Notes under the pieces: generated by a model | Databases searched by the model: none | What the model was told of the DNA's origin: nothing | The model's input: only the letters and a program-made list of their open reading frames with translations | Part shown: positions 58,283 through 62,615 of the stretch, piece after piece | How the letters are laid out: every line of letters begins with the position of its first letter | How positions within the stretch are numbered: position 1 is the first letter of the stretch | Assembly: GCF_900104695.1 (NCBI RefSeq) | Contig: NZ_FNSW01000001.1 | Span: 4,756,501 to 4,820,500, forward strand | DNA from: Paenibacillus sp. GP183 | Lineage (GTDB): Bacteria > Bacillota > Bacilli > Paenibacillales > NBRC-103111 | Length of the DNA: 64,000 nt | Direction of reading: 5' to 3' | Translations under genes and position numbers: made by a program

Positions 58283-59236
58283 TTATAGAAACGAAAAGGA
58301 TAGCTGAACCGGATCAGTCTCCTGGGCAGGATTTACGGGCAGACCGGCCGGTTTCTCTGCTTCATAGGCTTTATAAGCACTCAATTGATATTGCTCCAGC
58401 CAAATTCCGATCTGTTTGCGGATCGGTTCCCGATAGCTGGCAGGAGCATGTGCTGCGCTTCCGTAAAGAGTGCTGTAAGGCATCACAAGCTCCGGGTAGT
58501 AAATCTGTAAATTTTGAAAAAACCAAACCTTGACTTCACGTGTGCTTAGCCTCAAAAAATTAGCCATCACAAACTCGGCTCGATGCGTGGAGGCTTGCTG
58601 AATAAGTTCATGAAGATCTTCCGGGCTATCAGTGAGATAAGGCAAAATAGGAGCCATGAATATACCGGCAGGAATACCAGCTTCTATTAGCTGTTGGACT
58701 GTTTCAAGTCTCTTCATCGGAGATGGCGTAGAGGGCTCCATACTTCTCCAAACATTTGGATTCAATGTATTGATGCTCAAGTTGACAGACGTAATCGGAA
58801 TCTCCTTGAGAATATCGATATCTCTCAAGACGAGTGGAGAACGGGTCGTGATGCTGATGGTGAGCTGGTATTTGGCGGCTACTTTTAAGCATTCCCGAGT
58901 CAGCTTCATCTTGCCCTCAATAGGCTGATATGGATCTGTTGCTGTGCCTATGGCGATTCGGCCTATAGGTTTTTTTCTTTTGCCGGGGCGCAGCTGCTTG
59001 AGTACCTCTGCCTCCAAAGCTTCGGCTGCATTGGATTTAAGCAGAATGTGCTTTTGAAAGGTATCGTCGCCTTCCATCCCCAGAAAGCTGTGAGTCGAAC
59101 GCGCATAGCAAAAACTGCAGCCATGCAGGCAGCCGCGATAGGGATTTATCGACTTCTCAAAAGGCATGGAGGGCGCTTTGACTTCATTTAGTATCGTTTT
59201 GCAGCTGACGGCTTCATATTGAGTGGATTTCGACAT
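58283..59236 (-). CDS. Radical SAM protein of SPL-like (Rv2578c) type
   Basis: A 317-residue radical SAM protein with the cluster motif CLHGCSFCYAR (Cys-x3-Cys-x2-Cys; residues about 36-46), FEKSINPYRG just before it and GTATDPYQPIEGK. The family is related to spore photoproduct lyase but lacks known conserved SPL-specific cysteines as far as I can see. It is widespread and uncharacterised. Minus strand, ending 3 bp from the convergent diguanylate cyclase gene. Confidence 0.88.
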   Translation of the reverse strand: MSKSTQYEAVSCKTILNEVKAPSMPFEKSINPYRGCLHGCSFCYARSTHSFLGMEGDDTFQKHILLKSNAAEALEAEVLKQLRPGKRKKPIGRIAIGTATDPYQPIEGKMKLTRECLKVAAKYQLTISITTRSPLVLRDIDILKEIPITSVNLSINTLNPNVWRSMEPSTPSPMKRLETVQQLIEAGIPAGIFMAPILPYLTDSPEDLHELIQQASTHRAEFVMANFLRLSTREVKVWFFQNLQIYYPELVMPYSTLYGSAAHAPASYREPIRKQIGIWLEQYQLSAYKAYEAEKPAGLPVNPAQETDPVQLSFSFL

Positions 59237-59333
59237 AACGTTTCACCGCCTTTGCAGGATTGGAGAGATTAACAGGAAAATTACCCGGGAAATTATTCTT
59301 ATTCAGAACAAATGTTCTGACTATGCACATACC

Positions 59334-59397
59334 TCAGGCAACCGCGAAAGGGGTAGAAGCAAGGCATGCATTCAGAAGTCGTCCGAATAATTCTTTA
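59334..59397 (-). pseudogene. Detached 3' end of the outer IS1595 transposase
   Basis: This minus-strand fragment encodes LFGRLLNACLASTPFAVA and a stop. Joined to 61629 across the ATTCTTTA duplication it continues the frame of the outer transposase exactly and matches the C-terminus of the inner one (FNRLLTACIST). It is the severed last 18 codons of the gene. Confidence 0.85.
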
Positions 59398-59434
59398 TTT
59401 GTATATCAAGTTGCCTCAGCAAATCCTTCCAACG

Positions 59435-59474
59435 CGAACGTTTGTTTGATATACTAAATACAAACGAATGTTCG
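59435..59474 (+). promoter_or_regulatory. Paired LexA-box-like sites around the inner IS promoter
   Basis: CGAACGTTTGTTTG (59435-59448) and CAAACGAATGTTCG (59461-59474) each match GAAC-N4-GTTC with one mismatch. Between them lies TATACT (59450-59455), a likely -10 box. The second site touches the ribosome site. The same arrangement precedes the outer transposase. Confidence 0.6.
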
Positions 59475-59484
59475 GGAGGTTGAC

Positions 59485-60393
59485 ATGGCTCAACAAGAAG
59501 TGATGACACTGAAGAGATTTCAAGAGAAGTTTCACTCTGATGATGCATGCCGTGAGCATCTGTTCCAGATGCGATGGGCGAACGGCTACTCTTGCCCTAA
59601 ATGCGGGCACAGTACATTCTATTTTTTAGAAAGCCGAAAGCTGTATCAATGCATGCGCTGCAAGCATCAGGCGTCTGTAACTGCCGGCACGATTATGCAT
59701 AAATCGCATACTCCGCTGCTGACCTGGTTTTGGGCGATTTTCCTTGTAGCGCACGATAAACGCGGTGTTTCCGCCGTCTTTCTAGCGCGTGAGCTGGAAA
59801 TCTCCTACCCAACCGCATGGTTGATGCTTCACAAGATACGCAAAGCAATGAGTGATCGAGATGCCCACTACCAACTGGCTGGTTTGGTTGAGTTGGATGA
59901 CGCATTCTTCGGAGCGCCAACAGAAGGCGGCAAACGTGGGCGTGGCACGGATCAAACGCCAGTGCTTGTTGGGGTTTCGCTCAATAAACAAGGAGCACCG
60001 CAATACGTCAAGATGCAAGTGATTCCAGACGTGAAAGGTAAGACGCTTGTTGAGTTTGCGAAACTGCACATCGAGCCAGGTTCAACGATCAGTAGCGACG
60101 CATATCGGTCTTATAACGCACTCGCTGAAGAATATGACCACCAACCAATCAAGTTCAATGTAAAGGATAATCCTGATCACTTGAAGTGGCTGCATACGAT
60201 GATTTCCAACGCCAAAGCCTTTATTGGCGGCACATTTCACGGATTAGATTCCAAGCATCTGCAATCCTATTTGAATGAATTCTGCTTTCGAACCAATCGT
60301 CGGCAGTTTGGAGGTCAGATGTTTAACCGTTTGCTAACTGCTTGTATCTCTACTGATACCATCACTTACGGCGATCTGACCGCAAAGGTTTAG
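59485..60393 (+). CDS. IS1595-family transposase (inner element)
   Basis: A 302-residue transposase. The N-terminal zinc ribbon CPKCGHSTFYFLESRKLYQCMRCKHQASVTAGTIM is followed by a helical region (WFWAIFLVAHDKRGVSAVFLAREL) and an ISXO2-like catalytic core: Asp in GLVELDDAFFG, Asp in TISSDAYRSY, then HTMISNAKAFIGGTFHG and FCFRTNRR. GGGAGG 5 nt upstream supports ATG 59485. It appears intact and probably active. About half identical by eye to the outer transposase. Confidence 0.95.
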   Translation: MAQQEVMTLKRFQEKFHSDDACREHLFQMRWANGYSCPKCGHSTFYFLESRKLYQCMRCKHQASVTAGTIMHKSHTPLLTWFWAIFLVAHDKRGVSAVFLARELEISYPTAWLMLHKIRKAMSDRDAHYQLAGLVELDDAFFGAPTEGGKRGRGTDQTPVLVGVSLNKQGAPQYVKMQVIPDVKGKTLVEFAKLHIEPGSTISSDAYRSYNALAEEYDHQPIKFNVKDNPDHLKWLHTMISNAKAFIGGTFHGLDSKHLQSYLNEFCFRTNRRQFGGQMFNRLLTACISTDTITYGDLTAKV

Positions 60394-60418
60394 TAGCGGT
60401 GCTAACTTGATATTCAAA

Positions 60419-60550
60419 AAGAAAAAAATGTTTATTGTATCCAATCTTTTTTCGGGAATAGCAATCCATGAGAAATCTGTTCACATGTCTCATGCTATAA
60501 TATAGTTCGTGAACAACGAAAAATGCAACTGCGGAAGGAGTAACCAGGTC
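60419..60550 (+). promoter_or_regulatory. Promoter with two inverted repeats before the efflux remnant
   Basis: TATAAT at 60496-60501 is flanked by CATGAGA / TCTCATG (60467-60473 with 60488-60494) and TTCGTGAACAACGAA (60506-60520). GGAAGGAG lies at about 60533-60540. This looks like the regulated promoter of a drug-efflux gene, kept although the gene itself is truncated. It may now drive the DHFR-like gene. Confidence 0.55.
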
Positions 60551-60670
60551 GTGGAAATGAAGAAAAATAATTTGGGACTTATCGTCGCGGGACTGATGCT
60601 GGGCTTGTTTATTGCGTCCGTCGACAATACCTGGTACATGTCAGCACTACACGCGCTAACGTACAATTAA
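60551..60670 (+). pseudogene. 5' stump of an EmrB/QacA-like MFS efflux gene
   Basis: GTG 60551 starts a 39-codon frame VEMKKNNLGLIVAGLM.. that continues LGLFIASVDNT, the conserved first membrane segment of DHA2-type drug exporters. After SVDNT the sequence departs (WYMSALHALTYN, stop). Normal proteins of this family have over 450 residues. The break at about 60630 marks a deletion joining it to the DHFR-like gene region. Confidence 0.75.
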
Positions 60671-60695
60671 GCTAAAAGAAAGGATGAAAAGCAAA

Positions 60696-61301
60696 ATGGG
60701 AAAACTTGTTGTGCATATGTTCATGACCTTGGATGGCGTTGTTCAAGCTCCTGGAGAGAACAATGAAGATCGTGATGGTAGTTTTGGCTATGGCGGGTGG
60801 CAGGTTTCGTATCGCGATGCGGAGTCCGGACAACAGATTGCGGCTGATTATGCGAGCCTCGACGCTCTGTTGTTCGGTCGTAAGACGTACGAAATCTTCG
60901 CGCAGTATTGGCCGCAGGCGCCAGAAGAAAACCCGTTCACCAAGCTGCTGAACGAGAAACCGAAATATGTCGCATCTCGGACATTGACCAGCGTCGATTG
61001 GAAAAATACAAAGCTGCTCGACGCGGATGTGACCACAAGTGTGCCTTTGTTGAAGGAGCGGTACGCGGAGGTGCACGTCGTCGGCAGCGGCGACTTGGTC
61101 CAGACATTGCTACGTCACGAGCTGATTGACCGAATGAACATCTGGCAGTTTCCGGTATTGCTCGGAAAGGGAAAACGATTCTTCGGCGATGGAACGATAC
61201 CGACAGCCCTGCAATTGATTGAATCCAGAACGTTCTCCAAAGGCACGGTTCTATTGCGCTACGAGCTTGCGGGAAAACCGTCTTTCGGCAACATGGCGTG
61301 A
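60696..61301 (+). CDS. Dihydrofolate-reductase-like protein (RibD C-terminal family)
   Basis: A 201-residue protein of the YyaP/YwjB-like RibD_C family: VVHMFMTLDGVVQAPGENNED at the start, LLFGRKTYEIFAQYWP, VASRTLT, VHVVGSGDLVQTLLRHELIDRMNIWQFPVLLGKGKRFF. It is probably an NADPH-dependent reductase with unproven substrate. ATG 60696 gives a plausible spacing to AAAGG (12 nt); ATG 60684 is adjacent to it. It is a passenger in the IS1595-type transposon. Local base use is more GC-rich than the IS. Confidence 0.88.
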   Translation: MGKLVVHMFMTLDGVVQAPGENNEDRDGSFGYGGWQVSYRDAESGQQIAADYASLDALLFGRKTYEIFAQYWPQAPEENPFTKLLNEKPKYVASRTLTSVDWKNTKLLDADVTTSVPLLKERYAEVHVVGSGDLVQTLLRHELIDRMNIWQFPVLLGKGKRFFGDGTIPTALQLIESRTFSKGTVLLRYELAGKPSFGNMA

Positions 61302-61368
61302 GATGCTGACGGACTGAAGACTAATTACCAGTTACTGACTTGAACTGCATAGGTCATGATAAGAAAAA

Positions 61369-61400
61369 CCGTCAGGGAAGTTCGCCCTGACGGTCCTTTT
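61369..61400 (+). terminator. Terminator of the DHFR-like passenger gene, overlapping a stop codon on the other strand
   Basis: Stem CCGTCAGGG / CCCTGACGG with loop AAGTTCG and TCCTTTT tail. It contains the stop codon (61372-61374) of the minus-strand small gene and is 23/26 identical to the hairpin at 28184-28208. Confidence 0.85.
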
Positions 61401-61527
61401 GAGTTTGGAGGATATCCGAAACACTGTATTCGTACCCATACACTCCTTTGTAATACTCCGGGTACATCTCTCCTCCACACTGTTCACATGCGAATTTAGG
61501 CGGGACACTTGGGTCTCCTCCATCCAT
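61372..61527 (-). CDS. Small zinc-ribbon-like protein, possibly 5'-truncated
   Basis: A 51-codon minus-strand frame starting MDGGDPSVPPKF and containing CEQCGGEMYPEYYKGVYGYEY, with one CxxC pair and many aromatic residues, ending TQKDRQGELP. The composition and motif look coding, unlike the other frames here. It could be shortened at its 5' side, because the IS remnant begins 14 bp upstream. It resembles short phage- or plasmid-type proteins with a CxxC motif. Function unknown. Confidence 0.55.
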   Translation of the reverse strand: MDGGDPSVPPKFACEQCGGEMYPEYYKGVYGYEYSVSDILQTQKDRQGELP

Positions 61528-61540
61528 ACGGTCAAAATCC

Positions 61541-61620
61541 TGCTTATATCTTCACCGATACCATCACCTACGGCGATCTGACCGCAAAGGTTTAGCAGCG
61601 GAGCTAACTTGATATTCAAA
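61541..61620 (+). repeat. Diverged second right end of the inner IS1595 element
   Basis: 80 bp aligning without gaps to 60339-60418 with about seven mismatches. They cover the last codons of a transposase gene (..DTITYGDLTAKV-like) through the terminal repeat. It is the remnant of another, related IS copy. It forms the right boundary of the inserted unit. Confidence 0.9.
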
Positions 61621-62455
61621 ATTCTTTATTGAAAAAACGACGATTGAATCGATAGCAAAATTCATACAGATACGTCTGCAAATACTCAGAGCCTAGTCCG
61701 TGGTAGGTCCCTTCAACGAAAGCTTTTGCGTTGCTAATCACGGTGTGAAGCCATTTGAGGAATTCATCTTTGTCCTCTTTGTAATAGTTTTTGCTGATAT
61801 GCTGGTATCCCATTGTGCTCAGTTGCTTGTAAGAGACATGACCATCGGAAAGGATCGTTGAGCCTTTAGCAATGCACTCTTCAGCCACTCGATGTATTTC
61901 TTGAATGCTGACCTTTTCAATGACCTTCATTCGAAGATGCCTGGGTCTACCTTCTTCATCCGTGGACAGAGCAATAGCGACCTTTATTTTTCTTGTACCT
62001 CTGCCATCGGTTCCTGTCTTTTGACCGCCGAAATAAGCATCATCCATCACCACCAAGCCACTCAACTGATAGTTGGCATCTTGTGCTCTCATCGCTTCTC
62101 GAATTTTACGCAGTAAGCGTAACGCTGTTCTATAGTTGATTTCGAGAACATCGGATAGTGCAAGTGCGGACTTTCCTCTTTTGTCATGAACAACTAAGTA
62201 GATCGCCCAAAACCAGGTCAACAGAGGCAGCTTCGACTTATGCATGATGGTTCCCGCGGTTACGGAAGTTTGATGAGAACATTGCTGGCACTCGTACAAT
62301 CTTCGGTTTTGGATGAAGTAGTATTGTTCATGCTTACATCGTGGGCATTGAAAGCCATTTTTCCATTTCTGGGCCGAAAGAAAGGACTCACAATCTTCTT
62401 CGGTTCGAAATTCTTTTTGAAACTTAATTAATGACATTTCAACTGCTTTTGCCAT
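61616..62455 (-). pseudogene. IS1595-family transposase (outer element), C-terminus cut off
   Basis: The remaining frame has 279 codons; the intact product would have 296. N-terminal zinc ribbon CPRCKHEQYYFIQNRRLYECQQCSH, catalytic-core residues in GLVVMDDAYFGG, TILSDGHVSY and HTVISNAKAFVEGTYHG, ending now at FNRRFFNKEF by reading into the inner element's terminal repeat. The start ATG 62455 has GGAGTG 8 nt upstream. Only the last 18 residues were replaced, so residual activity cannot be excluded. Catalytic residues are intact. Confidence 0.88.
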
Positions 62456-62468
62456 CTTCCAATCACTC

Positions 62469-62511
62469 CGAACGTATGTTTGATATTTCCATTTTATCAC
62501 ACGTATGTTCG
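62469..62511 (-). promoter_or_regulatory. Paired LexA-box-like sites around the outer IS promoter
   Basis: CGAACGTATGTTTG (62469-62482) differs from GAAC-N4-GTTC by one base; CACACGTATGTTCG (62498-62511) differs by two. They bracket a 15-bp AT-rich segment with a probable -10 (TAAAAT on the minus strand), as in the inner element. Confidence 0.55.
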
Positions 62512-62615
62512 TATTAAAAGGTGTTCCTGAGCAGAGTGCATAGTCAGAACAAATGTTCTTATTGAGTTTAACAAATCCTGATAGAAATCTCAAATGGAAA
62601 TGAATAGAAACGACA

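Follow-up and report, generated by a model that had tools for sequence, protein, structure and literature searches.

The end of a 64,000-nucleotide stretch of the Paenibacillus sp. GP183 genome (contig NZ_FNSW01000001.1, positions 4,756,501 to 4,820,500), referred to here as the window, consists of two nested insertion sequences (IS) of the IS1595 family, an inner element lying inside an outer one. Six palindromes of the GAAC-N4-GTTC type are found there, four in the promoters of the two transposase genes and two at the junctions of the outer element with the host DNA. Comparison with host operators and with related elements makes it very probable that these boxes are LexA operators, which one IS1595 lineage of Bacillota would use for both the timing and the place of its transposition.

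Architecture of the nested elements

The inner element interrupts the outer transposase gene in its 3' part (Table 1). Both transposases match the IS1595 profile models well above the curated cut-offs, with zinc-ribbon and ISXO2-like DDE domains, and they are 50% identical to each other. Terminal inverted repeats are present, and exact 8-bp repeats flank other intact copies as well. The 8-bp target duplication ACAAATGT stands on either side of the outer element, of which an uninterrupted relative (L144) has a length of 1002 bp. The right end of the inner element exists in two copies (60338-60419 and 61540-61621, 91% identical), between which lies a passenger gene of the RibD_C type (dihydrofolate-reductase-like, 60684-61301). 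Since the duplication ATTCTTTA brackets the entire 2.2 kb, the inner element moved as a single unit. A truncated inner-type copy on a 399-kb contig of the same genome (L041, C2:36956) has kept the IS end and the full promoter pair, while its transposase is reduced to the first codons.

Palindromes in the window

All six palindromes had been listed in an earlier sequence-only reading of this DNA, and their coordinates and mismatch counts were found in the sequence as claimed there. In both elements, a -35-like hexamer, box 1 and a -10 hexamer follow one another, and box 2 then covers the DNA from the expected transcription start to the ribosome site, so that the two sites described around the -10 region were borne out despite the 50% identity of the transposases. 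Box 1 of the inner element lies inside the 17-bp spacer between TTCCAA (59427-59432) and TATACT (59450-59455), and box 1 of the outer element inside the 17-bp spacer between TTTTAA (62519-62514) and TAAAAT (62496-62491). The outer promoter boxes are kept in the related loci L055 and L129-L132, with box 1 at the equal position.

The two palindromes with a perfect GAAC-N4-GTTC core had been assigned to the terminal repeats of the outer element, which had to be corrected, as each is composed of the 8-bp duplication, 3 bp of host flank and 3 bp of the IS end. A terminal-repeat origin was ruled out by the N4 centre, which varies among copies, and by IS-free relatives, which already have the box. 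Three perfect palindromes are observed in the 64 kb as opposed to 0.91 expected, and two of these are the junction boxes. For scoring, a matrix was trained on host SOS operators alone, comprising 43 distinct sites (lexA, recA, uvrX, the SPL-like gene described below and tag) and no IS site. The six palindromes hold ranks 1-5 and 7 among all 14-mers of the window, with the left junction box (18.8) sharing the top score, and every 14-mer outside the elements scores below these first five.

Table 1. Features of the nested IS1595 elements and the adjoining host gene (window coordinates).
Feature	Position	Strand	Remarks
SPL-like radical-SAM gene (Radical_SAM)	58283..59236	-	its operator is the target of the outer element
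Left junction box AGAACAAATGTTCT	59305..59318		flank AGA + duplication ACAAATGT (59308-59315) + IS end TCT
Outer IS1595 element, inner element included	59316..62548	-	delimited by ends and exact 8-bp duplication
Ends of the outer element, TCTGACTATGCAC	62548 (5' end), 59316 (3' end)		
Outer transposase gene, last codons past the inner element	59333..59397	-	stop 59335-59333; window sequence compared with uncut copies
Target duplication of the inner element, ATTCTTTA	59390-59397 and 61621-61628		
Inner IS1595 element, compound	59398..61620	+	2223 bp; second right-end copy and passenger gene
LexA-type box 1, inner promoter, CGAACGTTTGTTTG	59435..59448		one mismatch; matrix score 15.64
LexA-type box 2, inner promoter, CAAACGAATGTTCG	59461..59474		one mismatch; score 15.64; over transcription start, next to ribosome site
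Inner transposase gene	59485..60393	+	
Outer transposase gene, main part	61629..62455	-	start codon 62455-62453; interrupted by inner element; DDE_Tnp_IS1595 and Zn_ribbon_IS1595
LexA-type box 2, outer promoter, CGAACGTATGTTTG (minus strand CAAACATACGTTCG)	62469..62482		one mismatch; score 17.58; over transcription start/ribosome site
LexA-type box 1, outer promoter, CACACGTATGTTCG	62498..62511		two mismatches; score 10.32
Right junction box AGAACAAATGTTCT	62546..62559		IS end AGA + duplication ACAAATGT (62549-62556) + flank TCT

Promoter boxes

The motif of the IS1595 promoters is also that of the SOS genes of the host, where it is represented by CGAACAAATGTTTG, AGAACTTATGTTTG and CGAACTCCGGTTCT in the lexA promoter, CGAATATATGTTCG in the recA promoter and CGAATACACGTTCG in the operon of the Y-family polymerase uvrX. 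The published LexA consensus of B. subtilis is CGAAC-N4-GTTCG (PMC4551915), and the transposase promoters carry operator-like sites of this Bacillus type. The 5.83 Mb genome contains 27 CGAAC-N4-GTTYG sites, 18 of which belong to IS1595 promoters. When 299 Bacillota genomes were scanned blindly for two boxes of this type, 8-20 bp apart, four of them matched: in the own genome and in G087, which belongs to another class, the pairs lie at IS1595, and in G044 and G162 at lexA-yneA promoters. The backwards control pattern matched one genome (G286).

The sequence-only reading had proposed to scan IS1595 upstream regions for such sites, and boxes with a matrix score of at least 10 were indeed found before 29 of the 34 Bacillota transposases, as pairs in 23, but before none of the 22 from other phyla, in a comparison by phylum rather than by the LexA motif of each host, in which the loci are partly non-independent (four are from P. 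tianmuensis). L109 was counted as a negative owing to a misplaced start, yet it shows GGAACATCTGTTCG. The Cohnella relative L111, with 30% identity, carries AGAACATTTGTTCG, and distance alone is therefore no explanation for the split between Bacillota and other phyla. The paired architecture is kept across transposases that are about 50% identical, and in 12 aligned pairs with a 26-bp spacing the half-sites are conserved to 97%, as opposed to 72% for the N4 centres and 73-76% for flanks and spacer. Judged from these alignments, this contrast is the mark of a protein-binding dyad rather than of a merely young sequence. The promoter pairs are thus most likely LexA operators, as had been suspected and as the shared lexA/recA/uvrX motif, the conserved pairing and the restriction to Bacillota strongly support, and the transposase is probably repressed by LexA. 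Distant IS1595-like genes with 43-47% identity also occur in the own genome (L010 at C1:2213547, L011 at C1:4440006); they have a single box, AGAACGTATGTTTG, right before the -10 hexamer, as do L104 and L108 of P. eucommiae.

Target sites of the outer subgroup

Protein and end-pattern searches assigned six copies in five genomes and the decayed relic L248 to the subgroup of the outer element, which is characterised by ends beginning with TCTGAC. All of them, the relic included, adjoin XRAAC-N4-GT. The five copies with both ends available show the full palindrome with the exact 8-bp duplication ACNNNNGT; outside the duplication, the host DNA reads GA or AA at one end and TC at the opposite one. 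With equal base frequencies, the eight positions of GAAC...GTTC are matched with at most one mismatch in 25 of 65,536 random sites, and five matches in five copies are therefore not due to chance. Since the IS end TCT restores the missing half, a complete box is present at both junctions. The duplication is centred on the palindrome, and the target is symmetric and fixed to the base; inner-type copies, in contrast, have AT-rich octamers without such a motif as targets. Three of the six copies, including the one in the window, are oriented along the downstream host gene and three point away from it, and this lack of a fixed orientation is as expected of a symmetric target. The outer subgroup thus probably inserts into palindromes of the SOS-operator type, as suggested by every copy lying at one kind of site; this had been missed in the sequence-only reading.

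Close relatives of the outer transposase were not detected on plasmids at E 1e-60, and relatives on viral contigs reach 28-38% identity only. A search of 329 genomes for an IS end beside a box gave mostly unrelated matches with one mismatch; new among its finds were the relic L248 and a short remnant in G048, and a remnant in G162 turned up once more. The G162 remnant (L066, around 1410-1455) lies in the lexA-yneA promoter and reads GTTCTGGCTATG-TG-CATAGCCAGAAC, which looks like fused ends of the outer type, by LexA-type boxes. A similar stretch resembling fused ends follows TATAAT in the G048 remnant (L227, around 1500-1550), also by LexA-type boxes.

Host genes at the insertion sites

Three of the targets were examined in relatives of the adjoining gene, and the box was present at each of them. 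Relatives of the SPL-like radical-SAM gene next to the window copy, the own locus excluded, have a box no further than about 90 bp from the start in 27 of 27 cases; none of these boxes has more than one mismatch, and 16 are perfect (28 and 17 when the own locus is included; 2.0 and 0.18 in shuffles). A second copy in the own genome lies at tag, the gene of a 3-methyladenine glycosylase, whose relatives have the box in 25 of 29 cases and a perfect one in 21, again excluding the own locus (26 and 22 of 30 when included; shuffles 1.8 and 0.04). The tag box is typically located just 3' of TATAAT and some 39 bp ahead of the start codon, and the own empty site, rebuilt from the joined flanks, shows the same layout (TGGACA-17-TACAAT-box). 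The copy in G513 lies at a small first gene beside a yolD gene, with boxes in 26 of 28 relatives without the own locus (27 of 29 with it; shuffles 0.35). In B. subtilis and S. aureus, YolD-polymerase operons belong to the known or predicted SOS genes (PMC6511836). According to the relatives, the three targets were conserved SOS-type operators before the insertion, and the SPL-like gene and tag are probably SOS genes in Paenibacillales.

The remaining three targets lie by an MFS-like gene (G393), before an sspB-sspC-like operon (G316) and by another IS1595-like gene (G496). The genes downstream of the G316 copy (L141) match SspB and SspC of phosphorothioate defence, which raises the question of a LexA operator at this place. 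Next to the yolD gene at the G513 copy (L142), two genes were seen by eye to resemble TnsA and TnsB of a Tn7-like element.

Proposed mechanism and alternative explanations

According to the motif, its conservation, its position and its restriction to certain hosts, LexA would bind the two boxes of the transposase promoter and repress it; upon DNA damage LexA would be destroyed, repression would be lifted and the element could move. Copies of the outer subgroup would then insert at the centre of GAAC-N4-GTTC, whereby 8 bp are duplicated and the terminal TCT replaces the lost half. The transposase may read either the palindrome or the LexA bound to it, and the rebuilt boxes may stay functional and still control the host gene. 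More tentatively, LexA may be used twice, as a repressor that times the transposase and as a beacon for the target, with the interrupted gene and the new copy both remaining under SOS control; we consider this possible but somewhat doubtful.

About an even chance is given to targeting by the DNA sequence alone, in which the transposase would make no contact with LexA, its recognition of the palindrome having perhaps evolved as a mimic of a LexA site, and SOS operators would be taken as good, gene-free sites; the promoter boxes would still be LexA operators. The base-fixed symmetric target with its centred duplication and the mixed orientation agree with this, as does the absence of any partner protein encoded by the element. 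However, scaled up from the expectation for the window, about 80 palindromes of this type should arise by chance in a genome this large, and yet all three targets that were tested are conserved operators. Purifying selection could explain this operator bias, and chance palindromes probably outnumber operators. A preference for palindromes combined with selection is thus a real rival for the mechanism, but not for the pattern.

For the promoter boxes, binding by the transposase instead of LexA, in autoregulation or in transposition, had been offered as the alternative in the sequence-only reading, and we regard it as improbable. The outer transposase evidently acts on the same palindrome as its target, and the boxes are located 50-100 bp from the IS end. 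However, the 3' ends examined have no comparable box (best score 6.2; the window copy was unusable in this control, as the stretch in question holds the promoter of the inner element), which led to the rejection of transposase sites at both ends. Moreover, inner-type elements combine the boxes with AT-rich targets, lexA, recA and uvrX are under the same motif, and IS1595 elements outside Bacillota are without boxes, while L111, at about 30% identity, has one. That the palindromes arose by chance or plain sequence inheritance and have no function is hardly credible. Many inner-type copies of the own genome are near-identical and hence non-independent, which would fit such an origin, but the half-sites are maintained while centres and flanks drift, and the blind scan also speaks against it; chance was rejected on the matrix ranks and the counts in Bacillota and other phyla.

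Several points weigh against the interpretation of the boxes as LexA operators that serve timing and targeting. The support is comparative sequence evidence throughout, the counted loci are not fully independent, and some Bacillota elements are without boxes, namely L073 and, from Clostridia-type metagenome-assembled genomes, L078, L080 and L081. In addition, the outer promoter box at 62498 is weak, the targeting subgroup comprises six copies and one relic, and target conservation covers three targets.

Significance and comparison with known systems

LexA control of a transposase, already known for a few Gram-negative elements, appears here as a conserved trait of one IS1595 lineage that extends across Bacillota. 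The surprise lies in the targeting, with an IS that appears to land in SOS operators, by genes that are opened by damage and, in the outer subgroup, include DNA-repair genes, and to rebuild the operator on both sides. Both when the element jumps and where it lands thus appear to be tied to DNA damage. This would be a small, testable case of a mobile element that chooses moment and place by one host switch, and possibly a system for studying the contact of a transposase with a bound repressor.

In the library searched, outside of which most subscription journals lie, nothing beyond chance co-mentions was found on LexA and IS1595, and no report on SOS boxes as the target of an IS. The remark in the sequence-only reading that no description of paired sites in IS1595 is known agrees with this, as no paper was found. 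The elements share with the IS1595 family the zinc-ribbon and DDE transposase, the size of about 1 kb, the terminal inverted repeats and the 8-bp duplication. ISCR elements, which are related to IS91, have a LexA box on the transposase promoter, and their expression in E. coli is raised by the SOS response; IS10 is also cited as SOS-controlled (PMC13393415). However, ISCR elements differ in their unrelated HUH transposase, the Gram-negative LexA motif, the single box and the lack of SOS-operator targeting. In a survey of C. difficile, a putative LexA site is listed for one transposase (PMC4234289).

With respect to the target, ISAjo2-type elements of the IS1202 family, which insert at dif/pdif and for which a contact of the transposase with bound XerC has been proposed (PMC10132070), are alike in that the place where a host protein binds serves as the landing site of an IS. 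Transposase family and target are different, however, and they insert 5 bp beside the site, which is not rebuilt. The Mutator-like elements of the TnGBS/ISLre2/ISKra4 group are specific for promoter regions, a preference considered to keep harm to the host low (PMC3942029), but they insert upstream of the -35 hexamer of sigma-A promoters in general and not in the operator of a regulator. The Bacillus thuringiensis phage GIL01 (PMC4551915) resembles the IS1595 elements as a Gram-positive mobile element that employs the LexA of its host and two SOS boxes on a promoter, but here the boxes overlap, a co-repressor (gp7) is involved and the whole forms a lysogeny switch.

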